Of a DNA stretch of 64,000 bases, positions 10,477-52,532 are shown piece by piece. Under the pieces are notes generated by a model. That model was not told the origin of the DNA and made no database searches. It saw nothing but the letters and a program-made list of their open reading frames with translations. The stretch comes from a virus. The DNA lies in IMG/VR virus record IMGVR_UViG_3300031509_000001, positions 1 to 64,000 of that record; one strand, given 5' to 3'. The stretch's first letter is position 1. Every line of letters starts with the position of its first letter. The position numbers and the translations under genes were made by a program.

Positions 10477-11901
10477 ATGTCCACCGCCACAGGCATAGTC
10501 GGCTCGGCGGCCAAGCGCTCCACGGTGCAATCATCTGCGGCCAACAAGGAGGCAGTGCAACAACAACTGCCGCCACACGACACAGAGACAGAACGCGCGC
10601 TGCTTTCTGCCTGCCTTGCTGATCCAGATGTGGTACCGCGCGTCTACTCCCTAATCCGCGACCGGTATAAGATTTTCTGGGAACCGGCCCATCGGCTTGT
10701 GTACAAGGCCATCATCGAACTTTGGCAACAGGGCGTTCAGCCTGACATCATCTCAGTTTACAACAGGATTAAAACCTACCGAGATTCCTATGGTCGTTCT
10801 GGCGCAGATCTGGTGAGTGCGCAGGCCTTGGCCGAAATAGCCAACGCGCCGGCTTCATCGGCCAACGTTGAATATTACCATGACATCCTTCGCGCTCGTT
10901 ATCTGTGTCGGCAATTGATTGCCTATGGCAAGAGGCTTGAAGAACTCGCCATGGCATGGACGGATGACACACCGCCAGATGAACTTTACAGCCGCGCCGT
11001 ATCCGAGCTTTCCACGATTCGAGATGAATCTAACACAGTCGATTACGTGCCCATCACGCAGACATTACGAGAGATTGATGAGGATTTGGGGCGTGTGATG
11101 AATGGCGATGTCATCATGGGGGCCACCACGGGCTATTCTGATCTAGATCGCATTATCGGTGGCCTTCGTGCGCCTGACATGATCATTGTGGCCGCCCGCC
11201 CCAGCGTGGGCAAGACTGCCATGGCGCTCAACGTCGCCATGAATGCCATGGAGCGAAATGGCAATGACTTCTCTGTTGGCATTTTCTCACTGGAGATGAG
11301 CCGCAAGGACATCGTGACTCGCATGTTGTGTTCCATGGCGCGCGTTGACACACGTTTTACCCGCGGCGGCACCATTACCAAGGATGAAGTCAATCGTCTT
11401 GCTTCCTGCGCCATGCGCATGGCCATGTATCGCGATAGGATTGTGATTGACGATCGTTCTGGAATTTCGATAGGAGAGCTCTGCGCATCTGCGCGCATCA
11501 TGGCCATGCGATTCAACATCAAGCTTTTGGTCATCGACTATCTGCAGTTGTTGCACAGTTCCCGAAGGCATGCCAATCGAAACGAAGAAGTGGCGCACAT
11601 CAGTCACCAGATCAAAGCCCTGGCTAAAGAGCTGAACATTCCCATCATCCTGATCAGCCAGCTCAACCGAAATGCCGCGCGCAGCGATTATCCGTCCATT
11701 GCAGACCTTCGAGACAGCGGAGTGGTGGAAGAAGACGCGGACATCATCGCGTTGCTCCGCAAGGAAGACAGCCAGGAGCCAATTGTGGGGCTGGAAATGA
11801 TCATAGCCAAAAACCGAAACGGCCCAACAGACACGGTGCCGTTTGTCTTCTTTAGGACGTGCCAACGAATTGAATTGCAAACCAAGACCGCCAATGTCTG
11901 A
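10477..11901 (+). CDS. dnaB: Replicative DNA helicase DnaB
   Basis: 474 residues, close to bacterial DnaB. The N-terminal domain (about 30-160) carries the usual ERALLSACLADP segment. A linker leads to the RecA-like domain with Walker A ARPSVGKT (240-247), the SLEMS motif (271-275), Walker B LLVIDYLQLL (350-359) and the DLRDSG-VEEDAD segment. All catalytic elements are intact. It should unwind DNA ahead of the fork as a hexamer, loaded by the preceding protein. Its end overlaps the next gene by 8 bases. Confidence 0.97.
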   Translation: MSTATGIVGSAAKRSTVQSSAANKEAVQQQLPPHDTETERALLSACLADPDVVPRVYSLIRDRYKIFWEPAHRLVYKAIIELWQQGVQPDIISVYNRIKTYRDSYGRSGADLVSAQALAEIANAPASSANVEYYHDILRARYLCRQLIAYGKRLEELAMAWTDDTPPDELYSRAVSELSTIRDESNTVDYVPITQTLREIDEDLGRVMNGDVIMGATTGYSDLDRIIGGLRAPDMIIVAARPSVGKTAMALNVAMNAMERNGNDFSVGIFSLEMSRKDIVTRMLCSMARVDTRFTRGGTITKDEVNRLASCAMRMAMYRDRIVIDDRSGISIGELCASARIMAMRFNIKLLVIDYLQLLHSSRRHANRNEEVAHISHQIKALAKELNIPIILISQLNRNAARSDYPSIADLRDSGVVEEDADIIALLRKEDSQEPIVGLEMIIAKNRNGPTDTVPFVFFRTCQRIELQTKTANV

Positions 11902-15779: not shown

Positions 15780-16604
15780 TTAAAGAAACAGCAACGCCTG
15801 TGTGTTGATCTGTTCTAGAGCCAGCCGGGCGTATCCCGACGAAAGGACGTGCATGTCTACAGCATACTCAGGTTCTAGGCAGCGAATGGCTCGCTCGAAA
15901 CACTTGGCTCGAACTGCGGTTTGAATGTTGAAGGCAGTGCTTAACCCTACCATCGCTGATGGACTCCAGCGGTTACTGCAGTCTATGGATATGTCCGCCC
16001 TACATTTGGCACTCATCGACGGAGGGTAGAATTGGATAATGCAAATACCGCGACGCACAGCCTTGCTCCACGACTTCCAGCTATTATAGAGTAGCTGCAA
16101 CATGTTCTTATCAGTGGCAATCGTTAGCACTGGCTCGTCATCATAGCAATACCGTATTTGGCACTCATTGCAAATGGGGCGCGTTAAGATAGCTTGAATG
16201 GGTTCTGTATTACTTTTGCAGGGCCTACCATCTGCTAGTGGGGCAAGCCGAACTCGCGCATCCCTATCCTGAGAATTCAACCTAAATATGGTGATTTTAA
16301 TGTTGTTTCCGCATCCCATCAATGCGTCCAGCGTTCTGAACAGATGGATGGGGCGCATTCTGACAGCTTTCGGCCTGTTCTTTGCTGGCGGGGCTGCGTT
16401 TATGGCAGGACTATCAAGGGCCACCATTAGCCCGGGCTCTAGATATAGAACACAACGCAACGTGCGCTCGTATTCATCACCACGCGCATACAGCCATAGC
16501 TCATCATATTCGCCAGGATCGTAGCCTGTCAAAATGTCTGACAGGCGCGCGTGCAGGCGCTGTGCTTGCGTGGCGTCAATTGTGATGGATGCTATTGGTT
16601 TCAT
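15780..16604 (-). CDS. Candidate second sliding clamp-like protein
   Basis: 274 residues from ATG 16604; a longer frame upstream is unlikely. It resembles nothing strongly. The order of elements recalls a two-domain PCNA/gp45-type clamp: an initial strand-helix (ITIDATQAQRLHARLSDIL), a segment MRPIHLFRTLDALMGCGNN then ITIF that mirrors the PCNA interdomain hairpin region, a second strand-helix (LTIATDKNMLQLLYNSW) and a C-terminal VRAKCFERAIRCLEPEYAVDM segment. It has many cysteines. The clamp reading is inference from pattern only. Confidence 0.4.
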   Translation of the reverse strand: MKPIASITIDATQAQRLHARLSDILTGYDPGEYDELWLYARGDEYERTLRCVLYLEPGLMVALDSPAINAAPPAKNRPKAVRMRPIHLFRTLDALMGCGNNIKITIFRLNSQDRDARVRLAPLADGRPCKSNTEPIQAILTRPICNECQIRYCYDDEPVLTIATDKNMLQLLYNSWKSWSKAVRRGICIIQFYPPSMSAKCRADISIDCSNRWSPSAMVGLSTAFNIQTAVRAKCFERAIRCLEPEYAVDMHVLSSGYARLALEQINTQALLFL

Positions 16605-18193: not shown

Positions 18194-19408
18194 TCACACA
18201 TTCTTCATCAAAGGCATAATGTAGCAGCACTGCTGGTTCTGGCTGTCGACAAAAAAGACGGGCCAGGTGTCCCCATATACCTCAATGCGAATGGTCTCAT
18301 CGCCCGTCACATCCAGGTAATCCAGCACATACTGGGGGTTGATGCGGACTTCTATCTTTTCCCCCTCATATGAGAGTGTTTTCACTCGCTCTGAAGCTCG
18401 GCCATACATGTGGCCAACGGATCGAATTCCGATGGTCTGGCCGAATGTCATGAAGATGCCGAAGGCCAACGGATCACGCGCCATTAAAGACGCACGCTGA
18501 ACCGCCTTCAGCAAATCGGATCGATTCACGGTAAGCTGTGCTTTCACTGTCATGTCCTTGAGAAGCTTGCTGTAGTCAGGGTACTCATAATCAATCAGCT
18601 TGGCCTTTAGGCTGAGGCTTCCCACGCCGCGACATTCAGAGCACTCCATGACAATGTGATCGTTATCCAGCGTCAGGTGCACCATACTGTCTTTCCGCGT
18701 CGCCAGCGTTAGAGAGTGAATCAGCAGGTCAGCGGCAAGTTCTGGCACTACATAGCACAGCACGCCCTTAGTAGTGCGGTCAATCTTCTTGTTGACCAGC
18801 GCAAGTCGTTTGCCGTCTGTCGATACCAGGCGCAATGTCTCATCCTGGAACTCAAACAGTATGGACTGCAGCACATATCGACTCTCTTTGTTTGTAGCTA
18901 CGGCATAACGTGTTCCCCGCAACATGCGAATCCATTCTTCCGCGGCAAAACTCACAGTTATGTATGGCTTAGTCGGCAGAGGAGCATTCGTGTTGTACCA
19001 ACTTCCGTCTACACTGGCCATGTCAGCCGGAAAATCTTCTGGATTCGGCGTATCCAGGCAGTATTCCAGGTCTTCAGCTACCAGCATGACCTGGTTATCA
19101 GCCACCCAGGATATGTGTGTCTTCTCCTGATGCATCAGCCTTACTAAAGGCATAGCGGTAATCATCGGCAGCAGCACATCCCGCGCTTTGTCCTCGTTGA
19201 CCTTGCACGGGATTTCCACTGCCATGCGCGCGTCCAGCCCGGTGCAACAAATTTCTAGAATCCCAGGATAACCTGGGTTTCCGCTAGGTTTTTGCAACAC
19301 CCGCGCGCGCGCGCATAACAGCGCCGGCGTGATTGCTCCCTTGGGCACCGCCGGAGCTACAATTGACAACGCCTCTCGCAATGCCTTGGTTTCAACGGTA
19401 ACGTTCAT
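18194..19408 (-). CDS. dnaN: DNA sliding clamp, DnaN-like beta subunit
   Basis: 404 residues from ATG 19408, preceded by GGGGGC; the longer frame upstream covers another gene. The order fits the three-domain beta clamp: MNVTVETKALREALSIVAPAV at the start, the middle FEFQDETLRLVSTDGKRLALVNKKI element, and a C-terminal NPQYVLDYLDVTGDETIRIEVYGDTWPV segment ending in CCYIMPLMKNV. All are typical of DnaN. It forms the ring that tethers the replicative polymerase to DNA. A phage-coded beta clamp without a phage polymerase in view suggests use of host polymerase III. Confidence 0.9.
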   Translation of the reverse strand: MNVTVETKALREALSIVAPAVPKGAITPALLCARARVLQKPSGNPGYPGILEICCTGLDARMAVEIPCKVNEDKARDVLLPMITAMPLVRLMHQEKTHISWVADNQVMLVAEDLEYCLDTPNPEDFPADMASVDGSWYNTNAPLPTKPYITVSFAAEEWIRMLRGTRYAVATNKESRYVLQSILFEFQDETLRLVSTDGKRLALVNKKIDRTTKGVLCYVVPELAADLLIHSLTLATRKDSMVHLTLDNDHIVMECSECRGVGSLSLKAKLIDYEYPDYSKLLKDMTVKAQLTVNRSDLLKAVQRASLMARDPLAFGIFMTFGQTIGIRSVGHMYGRASERVKTLSYEGEKIEVRINPQYVLDYLDVTGDETIRIEVYGDTWPVFFVDSQNQQCCYIMPLMKNV

Positions 19409-19419
19409 AGCTACGCCCC

Positions 19420-19632
19420 CTATGCAAACAGTTCGTACATGATTCTTTGCCAATACAGCCGCGGTATTCCATTCACAACCTGTGTTGTGACTTCCCACAA
19501 CCGCGGCTGTAAACCGGTGTGTGATGCAGCCGCCATGCAAGCCACATCGAGATTGGTAAAGTAGTACTTGAACAGGACCCGCGGGCAATCTGAGGGCACC
19601 TCCAAGATGTAGTAGGAATGTGTGGGGTTCAT
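19420..19632 (-). CDS. Unknown small protein upstream of clamp
   Basis: 70 residues, aromatic-rich (HSYYILEVPSDCPRVLFKYYF). It ends 11 bases before the clamp start and begins 13 bases after the lysozyme-like gene, so it fits the operon. Function unknown. Confidence 0.6.
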   Translation of the reverse strand: MNPTHSYYILEVPSDCPRVLFKYYFTNLDVACMAAASHTGLQPRLWEVTTQVVNGIPRLYWQRIMYELFA

Positions 19633-19645
19633 AGAGCACTACGGG

Positions 19646-20023
19646 TTATTTCAGTGCATTCAGCGCACTCTTGACCTTCTTCCAATAGACCAGCGTTGCC
19701 GGTTTTAGGTGCCCTTGTGGCCCCCCGTTATGCACACGGGCCACCATTTCCGCATTGGTCAGCGGCACCTTGTGCCTAATCATGTAGGCGCGCATGATGC
19801 GCTTGCTGCCTTCCAGTGTCCAACGCATGTCGGGCGTGATTCCCGGATCTACATCTTGCGCATCCCTGACATAGGCCATGTGGATTTGCGCAGGGCCGAT
19901 AGCCTTGCCATTATCACCTACAGCCTTCAGATTGCCGCCAGATTCCACCTGCACAATGGCCCTAAAGATGCGGTCAAACGCGGCTTCTTCTTTTGGGTTC
20001 AATTGAATGGTCTTATCACTCAT
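19646..20023 (-). CDS. Lysozyme-like / lytic transglycosylase
   Basis: 125 residues with the lysozyme-fold pattern AIVQVESGGN (catalytic Glu27 candidate), GKAIGPAQIHMAY and a later ARVHNGGPQG segment, as in short SLT/lysozyme-like phage enzymes. It should cut the glycan strands of peptidoglycan. It lacks a signal peptide, so export would need a holin. It overlaps the nuclease gene by 8 bases (ATGAGTGA) within the replication operon, far from the holin-like genes at 57 kb. It could be the endolysin or an entry lysozyme. Confidence 0.75.
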   Translation of the reverse strand: MSDKTIQLNPKEEAAFDRIFRAIVQVESGGNLKAVGDNGKAIGPAQIHMAYVRDAQDVDPGITPDMRWTLEGSKRIMRAYMIRHKVPLTNAEMVARVHNGGPQGHLKPATLVYWKKVKSALNALK

Positions 20024-21314
20024 TGCTGAGTTCTCCTATTGGCAAGTCATTTGATTCTTCCGTAGTATAGAGATTGAGAGACGGCTTGCGCGCGCCTTTG
20101 AGTTTCAGCAACCGCGGTGTGCCATCCCCGCTCTCTCTCAGACAATGGCCAATGGCACTGGCAATGTAATCGCGCGCTTCGCCTTCAGACATTTCAAATG
20201 CCATGGCGATCTCTTTCACCAGAGAGCTTACAGACATGTTGCAGCAGCGGAGCAACACCTCTTCTCCAAGCCCGCGATCGCGCAACACATTGAACGCGGT
20301 TACGGTGTCAGTAATCTGTTCGCGTTTTGCGGGCGGCGCTTTTCTCCAACCGAGTTCTTCCAGCTCGTCATCTGAGAGAGACAGCAACACGGATTTCGCC
20401 CCCTCAATCATGGCCTCAAGATCACTGCGGTAATGCATAATGATGCTGGCCAAACGCGGGTTTGACTGCAGCATGGCCCGGCTCGATTCCTGTCCTGCAC
20501 CCAAAAGGAACCCTTGCAGCCTGGCTACACAAACGTGCTTGGCCTGGCACCACTTGCAATGCCAGCCAGCGATGAGGGTGGTGTCATCATCCATGGCGGC
20601 CATGAACAGCGCCTTCACCGTCATGGTCTTGCTCACAACCGTTTCATGCCCAATCCAGTCTGAGTCTTCACACTCAATTGGGCCTTCTAGGTTGTACAGC
20701 GGGATTTTAATGTAGACCAGCCGGGCGCGTCGAACCTGCGATACATCTCCGGATAAATACTGGTCAATGTAACCAGTTACTGCGGCCCACATCTGCCATG
20801 ATTTGTCCGCAGTTTCCCCGATATCCTCCAGCATGGATCGATGTGGCTGTTGGATTGTCTTGTAATCGATCACCAGCAGATCTTTGGTAGACGGGTTGTA
20901 CCACAGGCAGTCAGCCTTGGCGCTACCGATTTTACTACCATTCCAATTGATGAACATGCGATGCTCAACGTACTGCTGAGCATGTTCTTCTGACATTCCG
21001 GCTGCATGCGCAACACACAGCATCGCGTTGTAGGCGTTGATTGCCATGTTGCCCCAGTTAAGCTCGCGTTTGATTCGCTCCACATCGCTCAACCCTTTGG
21101 GCATGGGCGGCTCAGGAATCGTTTCTCCGCGGGCAATGCATTCAATGGCGGCATGCATGGCCGTTCCATCACGCATCGCATCGGTTTCAGCGCGTGGTAC
21201 GGTTTCCTGGATCTTCCACGACCCCGGACATTTGGCAATCAGCCAAAGTCGAGATGCGGATGGAAGGCCGGCTCTCTCATCGACTATAGTGGATTGGAAA
21301 GTAGGCGTTTCCAT
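20016..21314 (-). CDS. PD-(D/E)XK nuclease with Cys cluster (Cas4/RecB-like, DUF2800 type)
   Basis: 432 residues. Motifs in order: SASRLWLIAKCPGSW with Cys29, GTAMHAAIE with His54, ADCLW (Asp135), LLVIDYKT with Asp150 and Lys152, then HCKWCQAKHVC with Cys253, Cys256 and Cys262. One N-terminal and three C-terminal cysteines are the pattern of Fe-S-stabilised RecB-family exonucleases. It follows a putative annealing protein and so probably acts as the exonuclease half of an exo/annealase recombination pair. The C-terminal third is helical and of unknown role. Confidence 0.85.
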   Translation of the reverse strand: METPTFQSTIVDERAGLPSASRLWLIAKCPGSWKIQETVPRAETDAMRDGTAMHAAIECIARGETIPEPPMPKGLSDVERIKRELNWGNMAINAYNAMLCVAHAAGMSEEHAQQYVEHRMFINWNGSKIGSAKADCLWYNPSTKDLLVIDYKTIQQPHRSMLEDIGETADKSWQMWAAVTGYIDQYLSGDVSQVRRARLVYIKIPLYNLEGPIECEDSDWIGHETVVSKTMTVKALFMAAMDDDTTLIAGWHCKWCQAKHVCVARLQGFLLGAGQESSRAMLQSNPRLASIIMHYRSDLEAMIEGAKSVLLSLSDDELEELGWRKAPPAKREQITDTVTAFNVLRDRGLGEEVLLRCCNMSVSSLVKEIAMAFEMSEGEARDYIASAIGHCLRESGDGTPRLLKLKGARKPSLNLYTTEESNDLPIGELSNE

Positions 21315-22742: not shown

Positions 22743-23199
22743 CACCTGTTTTTGCGCTGTCAAGTGCCGAACGTTGCTAGTCAGCAACACGGGTCAAAAG
22801 TTGTTTTTATCGCCAAATTGGCACAAAACATGCTTGCAGTGGCTTGAAACCTCTGAGCGGTTGACAGCAAGCCGCAATTTGCGTGAGTATGCATCAGCGG
22901 CTGGCCAGGAGAAAAGATGCTGGCGGTTCGATCAGAGGCGTTACCGCAGACCGCGTGCGGGTGAACCCATGCGCAAGGCCGCCAGAAGCCGCGGAATCGC
23001 CCTGCCAGCCGCCTTAGTCCTCAAGGGGACACACCATAGCCGACGCCAAAGAAAATCGATCCTAGGCCGTTTTAAAGCGATTGCAGGGGCATTCTGAATC
23101 TTGAGCCCGCCGCAACCACCAACAGCAGTGCGCCGTCGTACATGCCAAAGCCCAACCTTGCTAGTAAGCCCAACTTCGCAAAGCCTCGCACAAGACCCC
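22743..23199. other. Non-coding stretch between divergent promoters
   Basis: There is no convincing gene on either strand; the long plus-strand frame here is the antisense of the annealing protein. It holds the TTGCTAGT palindrome (22773-22788), the 39-bp repeat (23052-23090) and a CCTTGCTAGTA box (23156-23166). Confidence 0.6.
23052..23090. repeat. 39-bp dispersed repeat, copy 1
   Basis: It begins AAAATCGAT and ends near AGCGATTG plus a G-rich tail. It matches 30171-30209 at about 30 of 39 positions in the same orientation. Both copies are in non-coding DNA around the structured RNAs. Confidence 0.6.
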
Positions 23200-23227
23200 T
23201 TGACAAGACAGAAGCAATGCCTATACT
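23200..23227 (+). promoter_or_regulatory. Consensus sigma70-type promoter of RNA R1
   Basis: TTGACA (23200-23205), 16-base spacer, TATACT (23222-23227), then GCCCCTCAG. The R2 promoter is followed by GCGCCTCAG, so the initial sequence is shared by both RNAs. The CCTTGCTAGTA box lies at 23156-23166. Confidence 0.85.
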
Positions 23228-23234
23228 GCCCCTC

Positions 23235-23760
23235 AGTCAGGCAGCAGACTGTGCCTGGTCAGATGACTCCGCGTCCGAGAGTTGATATCGGCGTTCTCAA
23301 GCACCAGCACAGTCGATCCGGTGTCCAACACCGGCCAGAGCGGTGAGTGCGGGGATAGCCCAACGCCGCTAGCCACTCTGCGGTTGCCAGACCAAGCCCG
23401 GAAGCGGGATGGCCATGCCGGGCAGCGTGGGCCGAAAGGTCAGAGCGCGGCTGGGAGAGGGTGGCGGCCCTCTGAGAGTCTGACCAACCGTGGACCCCGC
23501 CAGGACCCACGGGCTGCACGGTCCCCACGACCGTAGGGCGAGGCGAGGGGCCAGACGCGATCTGGGTATCCAAAGCCTGCCCTTGAGCAGCATACAGGCG
23601 AACCTTAGAGCCTAGTTCATAAAACCGCAGGCCCTAGGGGATGGGCCTATGCTGCCCAAGGGCGGGCTCAGGTACCTCCGCGATCTGGGCATCCTTAGTT
23701 TCAGAGTAGCCTACCTTGTAGATTAAGGAGCACGTAATTTAAGGAGTACGTAATTCAAGG
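23235..23760 (+). ncRNA. Large structured RNA R1, unrecognised family
   Basis: No plausible gene lies in this stretch, yet it is dense in paired elements: CCGGTGT/ACACCGG (23319-23335), GGTCAGA/TCTGACC enclosing AGAGGG/CCCTCT (23438-23485), CCGTGG/CCACGG (about 23488-23512), ACGGTC/GACCGT, and the long-range pair GCAGCATA (23587-23594)/TATGCTGC (23648-23655). It also holds a GGGCCGAAAGGTC element (23429-23441). It starts at a consensus promoter. At least seven blocks recur in the same order in R2 (minus strand, 31198-30554), with compensatory changes. I see none of the hallmarks I know for RNase P, tmRNA, 6S or self-splicing introns. The 3' end is set only by where the similarity to R2 stops. 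Confidence 0.85.
23725..23760 (+). repeat. 16-bp tandem repeat near the R1 end
   Basis: AAGGAGCACGTAATTT (23725-23740) is followed directly by AAGGAGTACGTAATTC (23741-23756) and a third AAGG start. R2 carries a related GTACGTAATTCAAAGG near its end. GCGATCTGGG-Y-ATCC is also repeated within R1 (23557-23571 and 23680-23694). Confidence 0.65.
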
Positions 23761-24136
23761 AAGTCCTTGGAAATCCTCAAAGCTGAAGATCCATTCTTCT
23801 CAGTTGATCTCAACCCTGCTCAAAACTTTAGCATCAAGTCTAAGGGAATAAAACACAGGCGCCGGCTTAATCGCTGACTCACACGAACAAGCCGCAAGCG
23901 CACACAAAACAAGCTCTCTAGACTCAACGCATCGCAAGTGCAGAGAAAACACACGCTAGGCCGCAATCTTTTGATACCGCAATGCACAAGTCCAAGGGAA
24001 ACACAAATTTTCACTCTACCCCGCAGGCTTGAACGTGGCTGGCGCGCGCTTAAACGCACGCAGTCATAATCCGACTGAAGGTTTTAGCCATCGCTGGCAT
24101 AAACATTTGGCGCTATAGGGGCAAAAAGAAAGGCGC
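23761..24136. other. Non-coding stretch before the early block
   Basis: A-rich with no gene. It holds a degenerate direct repeat (AAGTCTAAGGGAA at 23836 and AAGTCCAAGGGAA at 23988) and one GCTTAAACGC (24048-24057), the inverse of the motif cluster at 29.9 kb. No clear terminator for R1 was found. Confidence 0.5.
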
Positions 24137-24165
24137 TTGACATTGCGCAACGCATTGCGTAAACT
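24137..24165 (+). promoter_or_regulatory. Sigma70-type promoter of the early block, leaderless
   Basis: TTGACA (24137-24142), 17-base spacer containing TTGCGCAA, TAAACT (24160-24165). Transcription should start within about three bases of the ATG at 24175. Confidence 0.75.
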
Positions 24166-29534: not shown

Positions 29535-29905
29535 CCCGGCGCCGCTTCCCTGGTCCGCCGATCTGCCTTTCCCTTATCTTGCCGGTCCGCGTCTGGTCCG
29601 CTGGTCCGGTCCGATCTTCTCGACCGTTTCGTTGCCGATCTTGGCGCCGATCTTGGCCTTTGGCCATGCTTTGGCCTTTGGCTTTGGCCAAGCTTCAAGC
29701 CATTTGCTGTTGCTGGACCTTGGACCTTTGGCCTTTTGGCCTTTTTGGTTTTGGTTTTTGGCTTTCGTTTTGTCGGTCGGCCGGCTCGACGGCTTGGCTG
29801 GCTGGACGCGCGCAGCGTGCGGGGGGGCGGGGTTTTGGCCGCGGGCAGGCGGCGGAGTGAGGGTAGTATACATCCCTTCTCGATCCGACGCCTTTCTGAG
29901 CTCTC

Positions 29906-30007
29906 GCGTTTAAGCTCGTTGTTGTCTTATGTTCTTCCCAATCTCTTGCGTTTCAACGTCTCTGACTGTCCGCGTTTAAGCCTTTCCCTCTGACATCGCG
30001 TTTAAGC
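29906..30007 (+). repeat. Cluster of three GCGTTTAAGC motifs
   Basis: Identical copies at 29906-29915, 29972-29981 and 29998-30007, each preceded by C. Inverse copies (GCTTAAACGC) occur at 24048-24057 and 29143-29152. Five copies of a 10-mer within 6 kb is far above chance. Candidate protein-binding sites or origin iterons. Confidence 0.6.
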
Positions 30008-30111
30008 AGGGCTGTTTGTTTAAGATGTTGCCTTTTGTGATGTTTGTGATGTGGCGAGGTTTTGTGTGAGCTCTGTGTTTTTCTATGCCTTACGTGTCGT
30101 TTTCGCGTTTA

Positions 30112-30131
30112 TTTGACTTATAGGCGTGTTT
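30112..30131 (+). repeat. 20-bp inverted repeat flanking R2, left arm
   Basis: TTTGACTTATAGGCGTGTTT. Its reverse complement occurs at 31443-31462 with one difference. The two arms bracket the R2 region. Confidence 0.7.
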
Positions 30132-30170
30132 GTTGAGGGAGGGCGCATGGAGGGTAGCGGGGCAGGTGAG

Positions 30171-30209
30171 AAAATCGATTGTAGGCGATTTTAGAGCGAT
30201 TGTGAGGGT
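30171..30209. repeat. 39-bp dispersed repeat, copy 2
   Basis: Begins AAAATCGAT and contains AGCGATTG; about 30 of 39 positions match 23052-23090 in the same orientation. Confidence 0.6.
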
Positions 30210-30553
30210 GTTTACGGTTAAGAGGTGAGAGGTGAGGTATGAGGTATGATGAGGTGTGAGTTCTGGTTGCTGTGTTGCTTCTTTCTTTCGTTGTGTGATG
30301 TTGTGTGATTGCGTTTTTGTGTGTGCGTTTTAGTTTTCGTTCTTTGTTCTGCGCGCGACTTTTTGAGGATTAAGCGACAACGAAGCGAAGTCTTCTCAAG
30401 CAATTGAGGCGTTTCTTGTACATTGTACGCCTCTCTTTCTTTTAACTACGAGCGTTGTTGTTTTCCTCTTTCAACGTTGTGTTGAACAAGGAGAGCCTCT
30501 TAGGTGTTGTAGTAAACGTAGCGTTTCTTTCAGTAGATGAGGTTCTATATATA

Positions 30554-31198
30554 CCTTTGAATTACGTACGTTCTTCCTCTTCCTCCTGCTTGCCGGGGCT
30601 ACCTGAGCGATCCGAGGCTTTCCCCTTTAAGGCAGCATAGACCCAACCCCCAAGGGGCTTTGGAGAAGGTTTTGGTTCTTTTTTCTTCTCCTGCCCTTTA
30701 GGGTTGCGTCGTATGCTGCCTTGGAGGGGGGGTGGAGGGGGTTGTTTTGTTCTCCTCCTCCTCTTGCCGTACGCTCCGTCGCGTCCGGGTTTCCCCTTTG
30801 TTCCTGATTCCTTGGTTTTGGTTTTGGTTTCAGGAACAAGAGCAGCCCGAGGGTGGGGAAGGTCCTCCTCGGTTGGCCAGACTATTGACGGTACACATTC
30901 CACCGTCCCTGACTGATGCCTTCTAGCCTTTCGACCCTGGCCGTGTGATGTTGTGTCAGGTCCCCCTGCTATCACACATCGATGGATTGTAGCCGTGTCT
31001 GGTTAGCAGCGGTCGTGTCTTCGTTCTCGCATTCACCAGACATGAGGGGCTGTTTGACCCTTTGGGGGGGAAGGCAAAACGCCTGCGCTTGGGCTCGGCG
31101 CTTGTCAAAGAACGCTGAACGCCGATATAACTCTCGGACGCGAAGTCAATCTCCGAGCCTCGCGCAACACGCACGTTGAGTGCGTGCTACAACCATCT
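30554..31198 (-). ncRNA. Large structured RNA R2, homologue of R1
   Basis: Read on the minus strand from 31198. Shared with R1, in order: CTCAG start; CGCGTCCGAGAGTT then ATATCGGCGTTC (31142-31117); GGTGAATGCG; GGGTCGAAAGG (about 30937-30927); TCTGGCCAACCG through CGGGCTGC (30881-30842); GACGCGA; GCAGCATAC paired over 74 bases with TATGCTGCC (30720-30712/30639-30631); GCTCAGGTA (30608-30600); GTACGTAATTCAAAGG (30569-30554). Further stems are CACGCAC/GTGCGTG, TGTCTGGT/ACCAGACA, GTGTGAT/ATCACAC, GACGGT/ACCGTC, TTGTTCCTGA/TCAGGAACAA and GGAGAAG/CTTCTCC. Several stems differ from R1 by compensatory changes. Purine-rich insertions make it longer than R1. A 137-residue frame inside is low-complexity and absent from R1. 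Confidence 0.85.
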
Positions 31199-31205
31199 GA
31201 GGCGC

Positions 31206-31234
31206 ATTCTACGCACGTGTGGTGTTGGTGTCAA
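31206..31234 (-). promoter_or_regulatory. Consensus sigma70-type promoter of RNA R2
   Basis: On the minus strand, TTGACA (31234-31229), 17-base spacer, TAGAAT (31211-31206), then GCGCCTCAG as in R1. A CGTTAACG palindrome lies about 30 bases upstream. Confidence 0.85.
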
Positions 31235-31532
31235 GAGGTGAATTTGCAGTTTTCTGCGATAACGTTAACGAGTGCGTTCTGTATTGATGTTTTTGTGATG
31301 TGATGTGATGTATCGCGTAGTGTATTTTCATCTTTCTGCTCTCACTCTGCTCTCAGTCACTCACGCAATTGACTCAACTCTTCACAGAAGGCCCTGAAAC
31401 AAGGCGTTTTGATGGCAGGGGTGTGAATGCGGGTCAGTGATCAAACGCGCCTATAAGTCAAAATGTAACGTTAAAGTGGGGGTGTATAGAGAGGCCTCTG
31501 GTTCTTGGTTCTGGTTCTGCTTGTGATTTCCT
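31235..31532. other. Non-coding stretch upstream of R2
   Basis: No gene seen. It contains a GTGAT simple repeat (about 31294-31312) and the right arm of the 20-bp inverted repeat. Confidence 0.5.
31443..31462 (-). repeat. 20-bp inverted repeat flanking R2, right arm
   Basis: Reverse complement of 30112-30131 with one difference (C for T). Confidence 0.7.
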
Positions 31533-32381
31533 TCAAGCCCTACGCTGCTGTACTGCGTTCCATGAACCGAGCCCTTGCAGTGCGTAGTAGCAGTTAGGGC
31601 AGACGTTGATGAGGGTTTGGTTTTGCCAGGGCAGAAGAGTAAGCTCTGTGATCCCTGTCCATCCGCAGAAGTAGCAGGAGGAGAAGATGTGAGTTCTGCC
31701 TTCGGCTGAGTACAGGGCTTTCGTATGCTCGTGACAGAAGGGGCTGTGGTAGGTGATGCCCTTTTGCGGTTTGTACGAGGCAACAGGGGCGTGACAATCT
31801 GGCACAGCGCAGATTGTGCGCGTGAGCTTGATCCAGTTCCTGTGTCGTATTCTGCGTACGCTTTTGGAGACTGTAAAGGGTGTGGCGCTGATTTGCATGA
31901 AGGCAGCGTGAGGTAAATCCATCTCCTTATCCCAGGGGATGTCAAACGGTTTATGAATCGCTGGTGGGGGGCCAGCCTTGTTTTTGTGCTGCTGTGTGCG
32001 TTGAATTGCCTTGCGTCGCAGGAGGCTGTGATTGATTCGTGCCAGAATTGAGAGGGACAGAATCAGGTGTGTGCCGGAATTTTCCGGAGAGGATAGAGCG
32101 ACCAGAGCAGAATGCATGCACCAGCGTTTGGGGTTCGGTGCTTTTCGAAAGGCTCTGACTGCCTTGGCTGCGTATTGGCCTTTTCTTTGCAACGTATCGA
32201 ACAAGATGTGAATCTTGTCTGCTGTAGCTGAGGCCATTACGGACATGGCCATTCTCCAGCCTTCAGTGCTCTTGGGCGTGGTTTCCTGGGGGTTTTCCAG
32301 TCTTTGTTCAAGGCTGGAGTAGTAGGCGTCCAGCGTACTGGCAAGTGCATACTGGCGTCTTGATCGCATGTGTGCCACCAT
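31533..32381 (-). CDS. Unknown protein with C-terminal zinc-binding region
   Basis: 282 residues. The N-terminal half is helical and basic. The C-terminal part has repeated Cys/His pairs: CAVPDCH, FCHEH, CYFCGW and CPNCYY, which could bind two zinc ions. It is divergent from the nozzle-like gene and the only gene between R2 and the structural genes. It could be a nucleic-acid-binding protein, perhaps acting on R2, but that is only a neighbourhood argument. The start may instead be the ATG at 32369. Confidence 0.75.
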   Translation of the reverse strand: MVAHMRSRRQYALASTLDAYYSSLEQRLENPQETTPKSTEGWRMAMSVMASATADKIHILFDTLQRKGQYAAKAVRAFRKAPNPKRWCMHSALVALSSPENSGTHLILSLSILARINHSLLRRKAIQRTQQHKNKAGPPPAIHKPFDIPWDKEMDLPHAAFMQISATPFTVSKSVRRIRHRNWIKLTRTICAVPDCHAPVASYKPQKGITYHSPFCHEHTKALYSAEGRTHIFSSCYFCGWTGITELTLLPWQNQTLINVCPNCYYALQGLGSWNAVQQRRA

Positions 32382-50886: not shown

Positions 50887-50969
50887 AGTGCATTCCCTTT
50901 CAGTTGTTGACAGTCCAGACTGCCGGAGCAACCATACCTACAAGACGCAGCGCAAGTCAAGGCCTCCAT

Positions 50970-52532
50970 ATGCCGATTTTGCCCGATGGTAGTTGGGTCC
51001 CGCTGATGACCCAGCGGCAGATCGAATTGTTTAATCTCTGCCGAAGCCGGCAGAAGACCTTCGTCCTTGCTTCAGGCCCAAGACTGTCCGGGAAAACGTT
51101 GGCTTGCTTACATGCGCTTTGTGACCACGCATGGAATACGCCGAATGCCAACATCTGCATCGTTACCGTTACACAAAGCGCCGGCATGGACTCCGGAATT
51201 TGGACCGACCTGACCGAAATGATCCTGCCACAATGGATTGAGGAGGGCAATTTTGGCATGCGCTGGATACGCCGCCCAAGTGTATCCGGTGTCACAAAAA
51301 AGCCTTACTGCATCGTCAACAACCGATACGGGCACAACGTCAAGATCCAGCTCGAAAGCCTAAAAAACGAGACAGAAGCGGAAGCGCGATTCAAGGGGAA
51401 GCGCTATTCGATGCTGCTTGTAAACGAGCTCTCCAACTTCCGGAATCCAGCAAGCTTCAGGACCTGGGCAGAGTGCCTGCGTATCGTCGGCCTAAAGCCA
51501 CAGATGCACTTGTTCCTGGCCGACACAAACCCCTCTGACGAAGGCACAAATAGCTGGATCTACAAAATCTGGTACGACCTTCCCGTAGTCGACTTTAACA
51601 GGCAGCAGCATGACCAAGAATCCGAAGAACTCAAGGCCTACAGGTACCTGCAACCCCTCGTCGGCAAGGTGGAGTTCACGTTGGAAGACAACATCCTCAT
51701 CGAGCCGGAACGGATCCAGCGACTCAAGGCCGCCTACGCAGGCGACCCAGACCAATATGCACGATATGTCCTGGGCAAATGGGTCACGGCCACCACAGAT
51801 TCACTTTTCTACAGCGTATTCAAGGAATCGATTCACGTGGTTCCGCCAATCCCTACTGGTGCTGGCGACGACCGCGAAATCATGGTCCCAGAGCCTGAGT
51901 GCAGCGAGCTCATTACCGGCTGGGATCCTGGCGTCAGCAATTGCGCAACCGTAATCGTCGAAAAGGTCATCGCCAATCTAAATGGCGAGCCCACAAGCTA
52001 CTTCAAGGTGCTGGACGAACTGGTGGTCATCGGCCAGACGGTAGATATATCTGGGTTTGTGTATCAGATTGCGCAAAAGCTCAAGTATTGGCAGTCTGTT
52101 ATCGGCAAATCGATCTCATGCAAGCACTACTCTGACAGATACGCGTTTGACGTTAAAGAGCCAATGGGCAACCGCTATTTGCATCAGATTATTTTTGACG
52201 AGTCGCCCATTGACACTCCGGGGGGGCCGATTACGCTCATCGCCGCCGAACGTGGGAAGGGCAGCGTAGCACAAAAGGTTGAGCTGCTTAGACAGCTCTT
52301 GTTCCAGCGCAGAATCTTCTTCAGTCGGTACAAGGCCCCAATGTGCATACAAATGCTAAAAAGCATCAAGCGAGGAAGAACCGCCCTGTCCGTAATAGAC
52401 ACAGCCAGCCAGTACAAGCACGTGTTTGACGCGCTCATGTACGCCGTAGCATCCGAATGCTACGACGAGATCGCCAGGATGGTGGCGACCAAACGATTCA
52501 AGGAAGACAGCTATGTGCCGGTGCTGATATGA
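50970..52532 (+). CDS. terL: Terminase large subunit
   Basis: 520 residues from ATG 50970; an ORF start 22 codons upstream would overlap the divergent gene's control region. Walker A is GPRLSGKT (36-43). The Walker B position reads MLLVNEL (148-154), with Asn where Asp is usual but the catalytic Glu kept. The RuvC-like nuclease begins at ITGWDPGVSNCATVIV with Asp319. It should cut and pump phage DNA through the portal. It is on the opposite strand to portal and capsid. Confidence 0.92.
   Translation: MPILPDGSWVPLMTQRQIELFNLCRSRQKTFVLASGPRLSGKTLACLHALCDHAWNTPNANICIVTVTQSAGMDSGIWTDLTEMILPQWIEEGNFGMRWIRRPSVSGVTKKPYCIVNNRYGHNVKIQLESLKNETEAEARFKGKRYSMLLVNELSNFRNPASFRTWAECLRIVGLKPQMHLFLADTNPSDEGTNSWIYKIWYDLPVVDFNRQQHDQESEELKAYRYLQPLVGKVEFTLEDNILIEPERIQRLKAAYAGDPDQYARYVLGKWVTATTDSLFYSVFKESIHVVPPIPTGAGDDREIMVPEPECSELITGWDPGVSNCATVIVEKVIANLNGEPTSYFKVLDELVVIGQTVDISGFVYQIAQKLKYWQSVIGKSISCKHYSDRYAFDVKEPMGNRYLHQIIFDESPIDTPGGPITLIAAERGKGSVAQKVELLRQLLFQRRIFFSRYKAPMCIQMLKSIKRGRTALSVIDTASQYKHVFDALMYAVASECYDEIARMVATKRFKEDSYVPVLI

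Follow-up and report, generated by a model that had tools for sequence, protein, structure and literature searches.

What does this phage carry in its two long intergenic regions? The stretch analysed (the window) covers 64,000 of the 66,135 bases in a linear virus record of IMG/VR, and its genes for a large terminase, DnaB helicase, sliding clamp and exonuclease (Table 1) show the source virus to be a tailed phage. Region R1 (plus strand, 23.2–23.8 kb) lies in one of the two intergenic regions and region R2 (minus strand, 31.2–30.55 kb) in the other. The reading that we prefer, with a probability of about 0.8, is that they are paralogous, trans-acting large phage RNAs of an undescribed family, with a shared architecture, sigma-70 promoters and no shared reading frame.

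Homology and promoters of R1 and R2

R1 and R2 are evidently homologous, strongly diverged copies of a large, presumably non-coding RNA of about 530–640 nt, with ends placed by the promoter and by the last shared block. Their local alignment scores 166.5, against 51.0 +/- 8.1 and a maximum of 78 when R2 is dinucleotide-shuffled 500 times. At least seven blocks of R1 had been described as recurring in order on the minus strand in R2, and at that place we find twelve short blocks in identical order. The strongest of these, block A (TGACTYCGCGTCCGAGAGTT(G)ATATCGGCGTTC), is identical in 31 of 33 columns, a substitution and a gap making up the other two (E 1.6e-7). A covariance model of both copies, run over the whole record, matches only R1 and R2 (172 and 58 bits), while a model of R1 by itself reaches R2 through block A alone, because R2 carries insertions. 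The low-complexity linker of R2 is without an R1 counterpart. Coordinates are collected in Table 1.

In both copies a sigma-70-type promoter agreeing with the consensus at 11 of 12 positions stands directly upstream of the shared motif GCSCCTCAG. Sites with at least 11/12 agreement number three in the 64 kb window, against 0.35 expected from base composition, and two of them are the R1 and R2 promoters. The third (TTGACA-18-TATGAT at 16532, minus) lies inside an open frame of the same strand. Transcription of both regions should begin at or just after the CAG of the motif, and much of GCSCCTCAG would therefore be discriminator, outside the RNA, which would also account for the shared 5' edge. 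The preliminary description was thus right that the motif is shared, but as the start of the RNA it is misplaced, being mostly discriminator just upstream of the predicted transcription start. Similarly, the extent it gave for R2 (30554–31234) holds as a location but takes in the promoter, the RNA itself being predicted from about 31199. No terminator was seen at the 3' end of R1 or of R2.

Table 1. Positions of R1, R2, their predicted parts and selected phage genes in the window
Feature	Position	Strand	Remarks
DnaB helicase	10477-11901		
Sliding clamp	18194-19639		
Exonuclease	20016-21314		
R1 promoter, predicted sigma-70 type	23200..23227	+	TTGACA-16-TATACT, 11/12
R1, predicted paralogous structured RNA	23235..23760	+	about 525 nt
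5' domain of R1, closed by P1	23236..23392	+	P1 GTCAGGCAGC / GTTGCCAGAC (23236-23245 with 23383-23392); contains H1, block A (23264-23296), H3, H4
H10 long hairpin of R1	23574..23668	+	
Shared 3' block in R1	23748..23758	+	ACGTAATTCAA
Shared 3' block in R2	30557..30567	-	ACGTAATTCAA
R2, predicted large structured RNA	30556..31199	-	about 640 nt from a predicted start near 31199; its shared 3' block runs to 30557
H10 long hairpin of R2	30622..30729	-	conserved GCAGCATA/TATGCTGC; inner loop AACCCTAAAG
Variable linker of R2	30730..30770	-	purine- and C-rich; unalignable to R1
H9 hairpin of R2	30798..30839	-	TTGTTCCTGA/TCAGGAACAA
Middle region of R2	30847..30937	-	GAAA hairpin, H7, AGTCTGGCCAACCG, CCGAGG/CCTCGG, GGGCTGC
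P1 3' strand of R2	30981..30993	-	GCTACAATCCATC; separate fold
H4 of R2	30996..31042	-	TGTCTGGT/ACCAGACA; conserved inner loop GGTGAATGCG..GCTAACC
H3 hairpin of R2	31048..31083	-	separate fold
H1 arm of R2	31084..31166	-	encloses block A
Block A of R2	31117..31148	-	best conserved sequence; forms a hairpin whose loop GAGTTATA is conserved
P1 5' strand of R2	31186..31197	-	GATGGTTGTAGC; pair probability about 0.9
R2 promoter, predicted sigma-70 type	31206..31234	-	TTGACA-17-TAGAAT, 11/12
Large terminase	50904-52532		

Common fold and compensatory changes

Folded separately and without an alignment, R1 and R2 take the same topology in the 5' domain. A long-range helix, P1, closes a junction that contains H1 with block A, H3, and H4, the last formed around GGTGARTGCG...GCTARCC. 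The two copies have P1 at the same place in different letters. This helix had been missed in the preliminary description, to which the evidence of the promoters, H1 and H3 is likewise an addition. The common architecture continues from the junction domain through a middle region to the long hairpin H10, and agreement between the copies is poorer in the 3' half than in the 5' domain.

The likeness of the folds was measured against 627 shuffles in which the twelve conserved blocks were held fixed and the rest was shuffled, pairs being counted between the same segments of the two minimum-energy folds. R1 and R2 share 101 pairs, compared with 43 +/- 14.5 in the shuffles, and 52 in the 5' domain alone, compared with 18.5 +/- 8.1; none of the 627 shuffles reached either value. 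With the blocks fixed, the fold energies (z of -3.9 for R1 and -5.9 for R2) lie beyond all 627 shuffles, and for the whole sequences z is -4.3 and -6.8, respectively.

A core alignment without gaps compares the 5' domains of these two sequences from one phage, and in it 18 of the 43 pairs are double changes that keep pairing, versus 1–2 when the 3' partner strand is slid. Paired cells make up 97.7% of this alignment, as opposed to 32–44% after sliding by 1–3 columns. All helices matched by hand hold 92 pairs, 39 of them double changes, a count that is biased towards the structure, because both folds were used to guide the matching. One-sided changes in these helices number four, all passing through G-U wobbles, and mismatches occur three times in R1 and never in R2. 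The cleanest in-register double changes are three in H4 and one each in CCGNGG and GGYYAGA. H3, H5, H7 and H9 have wholly unrelated arms and display conserved position, not residue-level covariation.

The stems singled out in the preliminary description behave differently in the folds. The best of them is AGAG/CTCT, replaced by TGTC/GACA in R2, with pair probabilities of about 0.95 and 1.0, and the hairpin with unrelated arms ACGGTC/GACCGT and TTGTTCCTGA/TCAGGAACAA is recovered at 0.9 and 0.97. The change from CCGTGG/CCACGG to CCGAGG/CCTCGG is an in-register double change as claimed, but the helix has a probability of 0.88 in R1 and only 0.03 in R2. Likewise, the replacement of GGTCAGA/TCTGACC by GGCTAGA/TCTGGCC is real in the sequence and yet the stem is not favoured (0.35 in R1, 0.03 in R2); in R2 the preferred helix is GGCCAG/CTGGCC, which encloses a GGUC-GAAA-GGCU hairpin. 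Nor does R1 favour GCCCGG/CCGGGC (0.08), while its R2 counterpart reaches 0.57.

Fold energy does not discriminate between the sense and antisense strands; strand assignment rests on the promoters and the wobble pairs. The claim that selection keeps RNA structure rather than sequence is borne out by the common 5' topology, the shuffle tests, the double changes, the G-U intermediates and the promoter of each copy.

Searches for relatives and comparison with known RNAs

Blastn searches with R1 and R2 gave nothing among phages, save one meaningless 28-nt match, and no relative among plasmids. Pattern scans, which demand exact matches to blocks from two sequences and which distant relatives could escape, found no relative in IMG/VR (block A; H10; the GAAA hairpin with block E; blocks E-F; blocks B-C) or, for block A, in 85,000 bacterial and archaeal genomes. 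The IMG/VR matches inspected were due to chance, three of them on reading and others by their remaining blocks and local score. Of four genome matches to block A, three proved protein-coding on reading and the fourth lacked the other parts of the RNA. The two-copy covariance model had no match in 58 loci or in some 1190 bacterial genomes from three phyla, nor was it matched by an AAA-gene relative in Tunturi_3 and a 181-kb contig. Relatives of the phage itself are few: its terminase and neighbouring proteins match at 20–30% identity or not at all, besides one short identical contig. That contig (IMG/VR 3300026509_000150, 14.9 kb) has a 100% identical terminase and ends short of R1 and R2.

Neither region matches Rfam at gathering scores, and the Rfam models for ROOL, GOLLD, OLE, RNase P RNA and group I/II introns give no match at gathering scores or at E up to 10. 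MicroRNA matches at relaxed scores fall only on the long H10 hairpin or on low-complexity stretches and were set aside as noise, as were comparable chance matches at those scores. ARAGORN found no tRNA or tmRNA in the window. With compensatory structure, a promoter of their own and no protein frame, R1 and R2 nevertheless have the features of large structured phage non-coding RNAs in the broad sense.

The best comparisons within this broad kind are ROOL and GOLLD. ROOL forms a homo-octameric cage and is frequently, although not universally, found near tRNA islands; GOLLD expression is raised during phage lysis. Both are known to form homo-oligomeric RNA-only cages (PMC12286853). ROOL is a large, highly structured RNA of phages or prophages whose function is not known; it has a variable linker, measures 659 nt in one example and can match 16S rRNA in abundance (PMC12286853). 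R1 and R2 are also phage-borne, several hundred nucleotides long and highly structured, and the stretch at 30730–30770 of R2 is reminiscent of the ROOL linker; however, they lack a match to the Rfam ROOL model and tRNA genes in the window, and occur as two diverged copies in one genome. GOLLD is a large phage RNA of which one part is conserved and the other less so, and it has been recovered in pull-downs together with ribosomes (PMC12286853). R1 and R2 likewise have one better conserved part, but it is the 5' domain whereas GOLLD keeps its 3' region, and they are without an Rfam match or nearby tRNAs. OLE resembles R1 and R2 in its length of about 600 nt and ornate structure. It differs in being a chromosomal RNA of Gram-positive extremophilic and anaerobic bacteria (PMC12054373) and in having known protein partners (PMC12286853), and its Rfam model has no match here. 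On their sequences, R1 and R2 most likely make up a large phage RNA family not described before, like GOLLD and ROOL in scale and setting and members of neither.

Rival readings, proposed role and surroundings

R1 lies upstream of an AAA ATPase gene (24175) on the same strand, and bacteria commonly have large structured leader RNAs, so R1 might be a cis-acting leader or attenuator regulating that gene, R2 having once done likewise for another gene. However, the AAA gene has its own promoter (TTGACA-17-TAAACT at 24137, 38 nt before the ATG and about 380 nt beyond the end of R1), and downstream of R2 its strand is free of genes for about 1 kb, to beyond 29480; a leader role is therefore unlikely. 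Quite unlikely, too, is a structure acting as DNA, such as replication or packaging origins with folding single strands, or protein-binding regions. Such a function would suit the position of both copies in the phage's two long stretches of non-coding DNA, the other repeats near both (a 34-nt repeat at 23050 and 30169, and GCTTAAACGC sites) and a minimum of the cumulative GC skew at about 28 kb. Yet the extra repeats are ordered and oriented differently at R1 and at R2, strong promoters stand exactly at both 5' edges, and every one-sided change goes by way of a G-T pair, as fits RNA.

We regard it as very improbable that a small mobile or intron-like element left two copies: the 21-bp inverted repeat that flanks R2, facing inward, would fit such an element, but has no counterpart at R1, encloses no transposase or other gene, and shows no target duplication in the sequence, while there is no Rfam intron match and the conserved 5' edge is promoter. 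Decayed protein genes, or a chance similarity of GC-rich non-coding DNA, are scarcely credible. A 137-codon open frame does overlap R2 (30562–30975, minus), but it has no R1 counterpart; in R1 each of the three forward frames contains many stops, and R1 and R2 have no reading frame in common, their translated matches being short, mixed in frame and broken up by stops. Homology and shared fold, moreover, beat all shuffles. That these are functional RNAs and not decayed genes, as first proposed, agrees with the absence of a conserved frame and with a promoter for each copy.

By their sequences, R1 and R2 are predicted to be transcribed as separate units, each behind a strong predicted promoter of host type; their structure appears to be kept by selection, and a few loops are conserved letter for letter. 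Host RNA polymerase would make both from the onset of infection, early and at a high level, and each RNA would fold on its own. The conserved loops, GAGUU(G)AUA in block A, the inner loop GGUGARUGCG/GCUARCC and AACCYUARAG in H10, may be sites of contact, whether inside an RNA particle that is compact or multimeric or with a partner from host or phage. Both RNAs would then act in trans during infection, as has been proposed for GOLLD and ROOL, the two copies being specialised. A bolder and doubtful version is a new class of RNA machine in which diverged paralogues cooperate, for example as two chains of an RNA-only particle or as versions for different host targets. To our knowledge, very few bacterial or phage RNAs of such size and complexity have been described. 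An unrelated RNA family, duplicated and diverged in one genome, would offer an independent case for asking why phages make large structured RNAs, and its two paralogues a built-in comparison, showing which loops cannot change.

Several other sequences are found around the two regions. Upstream of R2 (31533–32381, minus) an orphan protein of 282 aa with several Cys/His pairs is encoded; it has no Pfam, PHROG or phage match, and a metal-binding domain is possible. The 21-bp inverted repeat TTTGACTTATAGGCGYGTTTG lies at 30112–30132 and 31442–31462, 1351 bp apart and 95% complementary, with no further copy in the window. The 34-nt repeat AGAAAATCGATNNTAGGCNNTTTTANAGCGATTG (23050–23083 and 30169–30202, both plus) is 85% identical, with none expected by chance; one copy lies upstream of R1, the other beyond R2 on its 3' side and in antisense orientation to that RNA. 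GCTTAAACGC has five exact copies, at 24048 and 29143 (plus) and at 30007, 29981 and 29915 (minus), and a near copy at 23865. Several copies are followed by GTCA, and those beyond either RNA on its 3' side share its orientation; the copies are possibly protein-binding sites or part of longer transcripts. From the last plus-strand gene to R2 (29560–30560) the plus strand is T-rich and of low complexity, with TTTGGCC-type repeats; the strand of R2 is A- and C-rich there, and the AT skew falls to -0.4.
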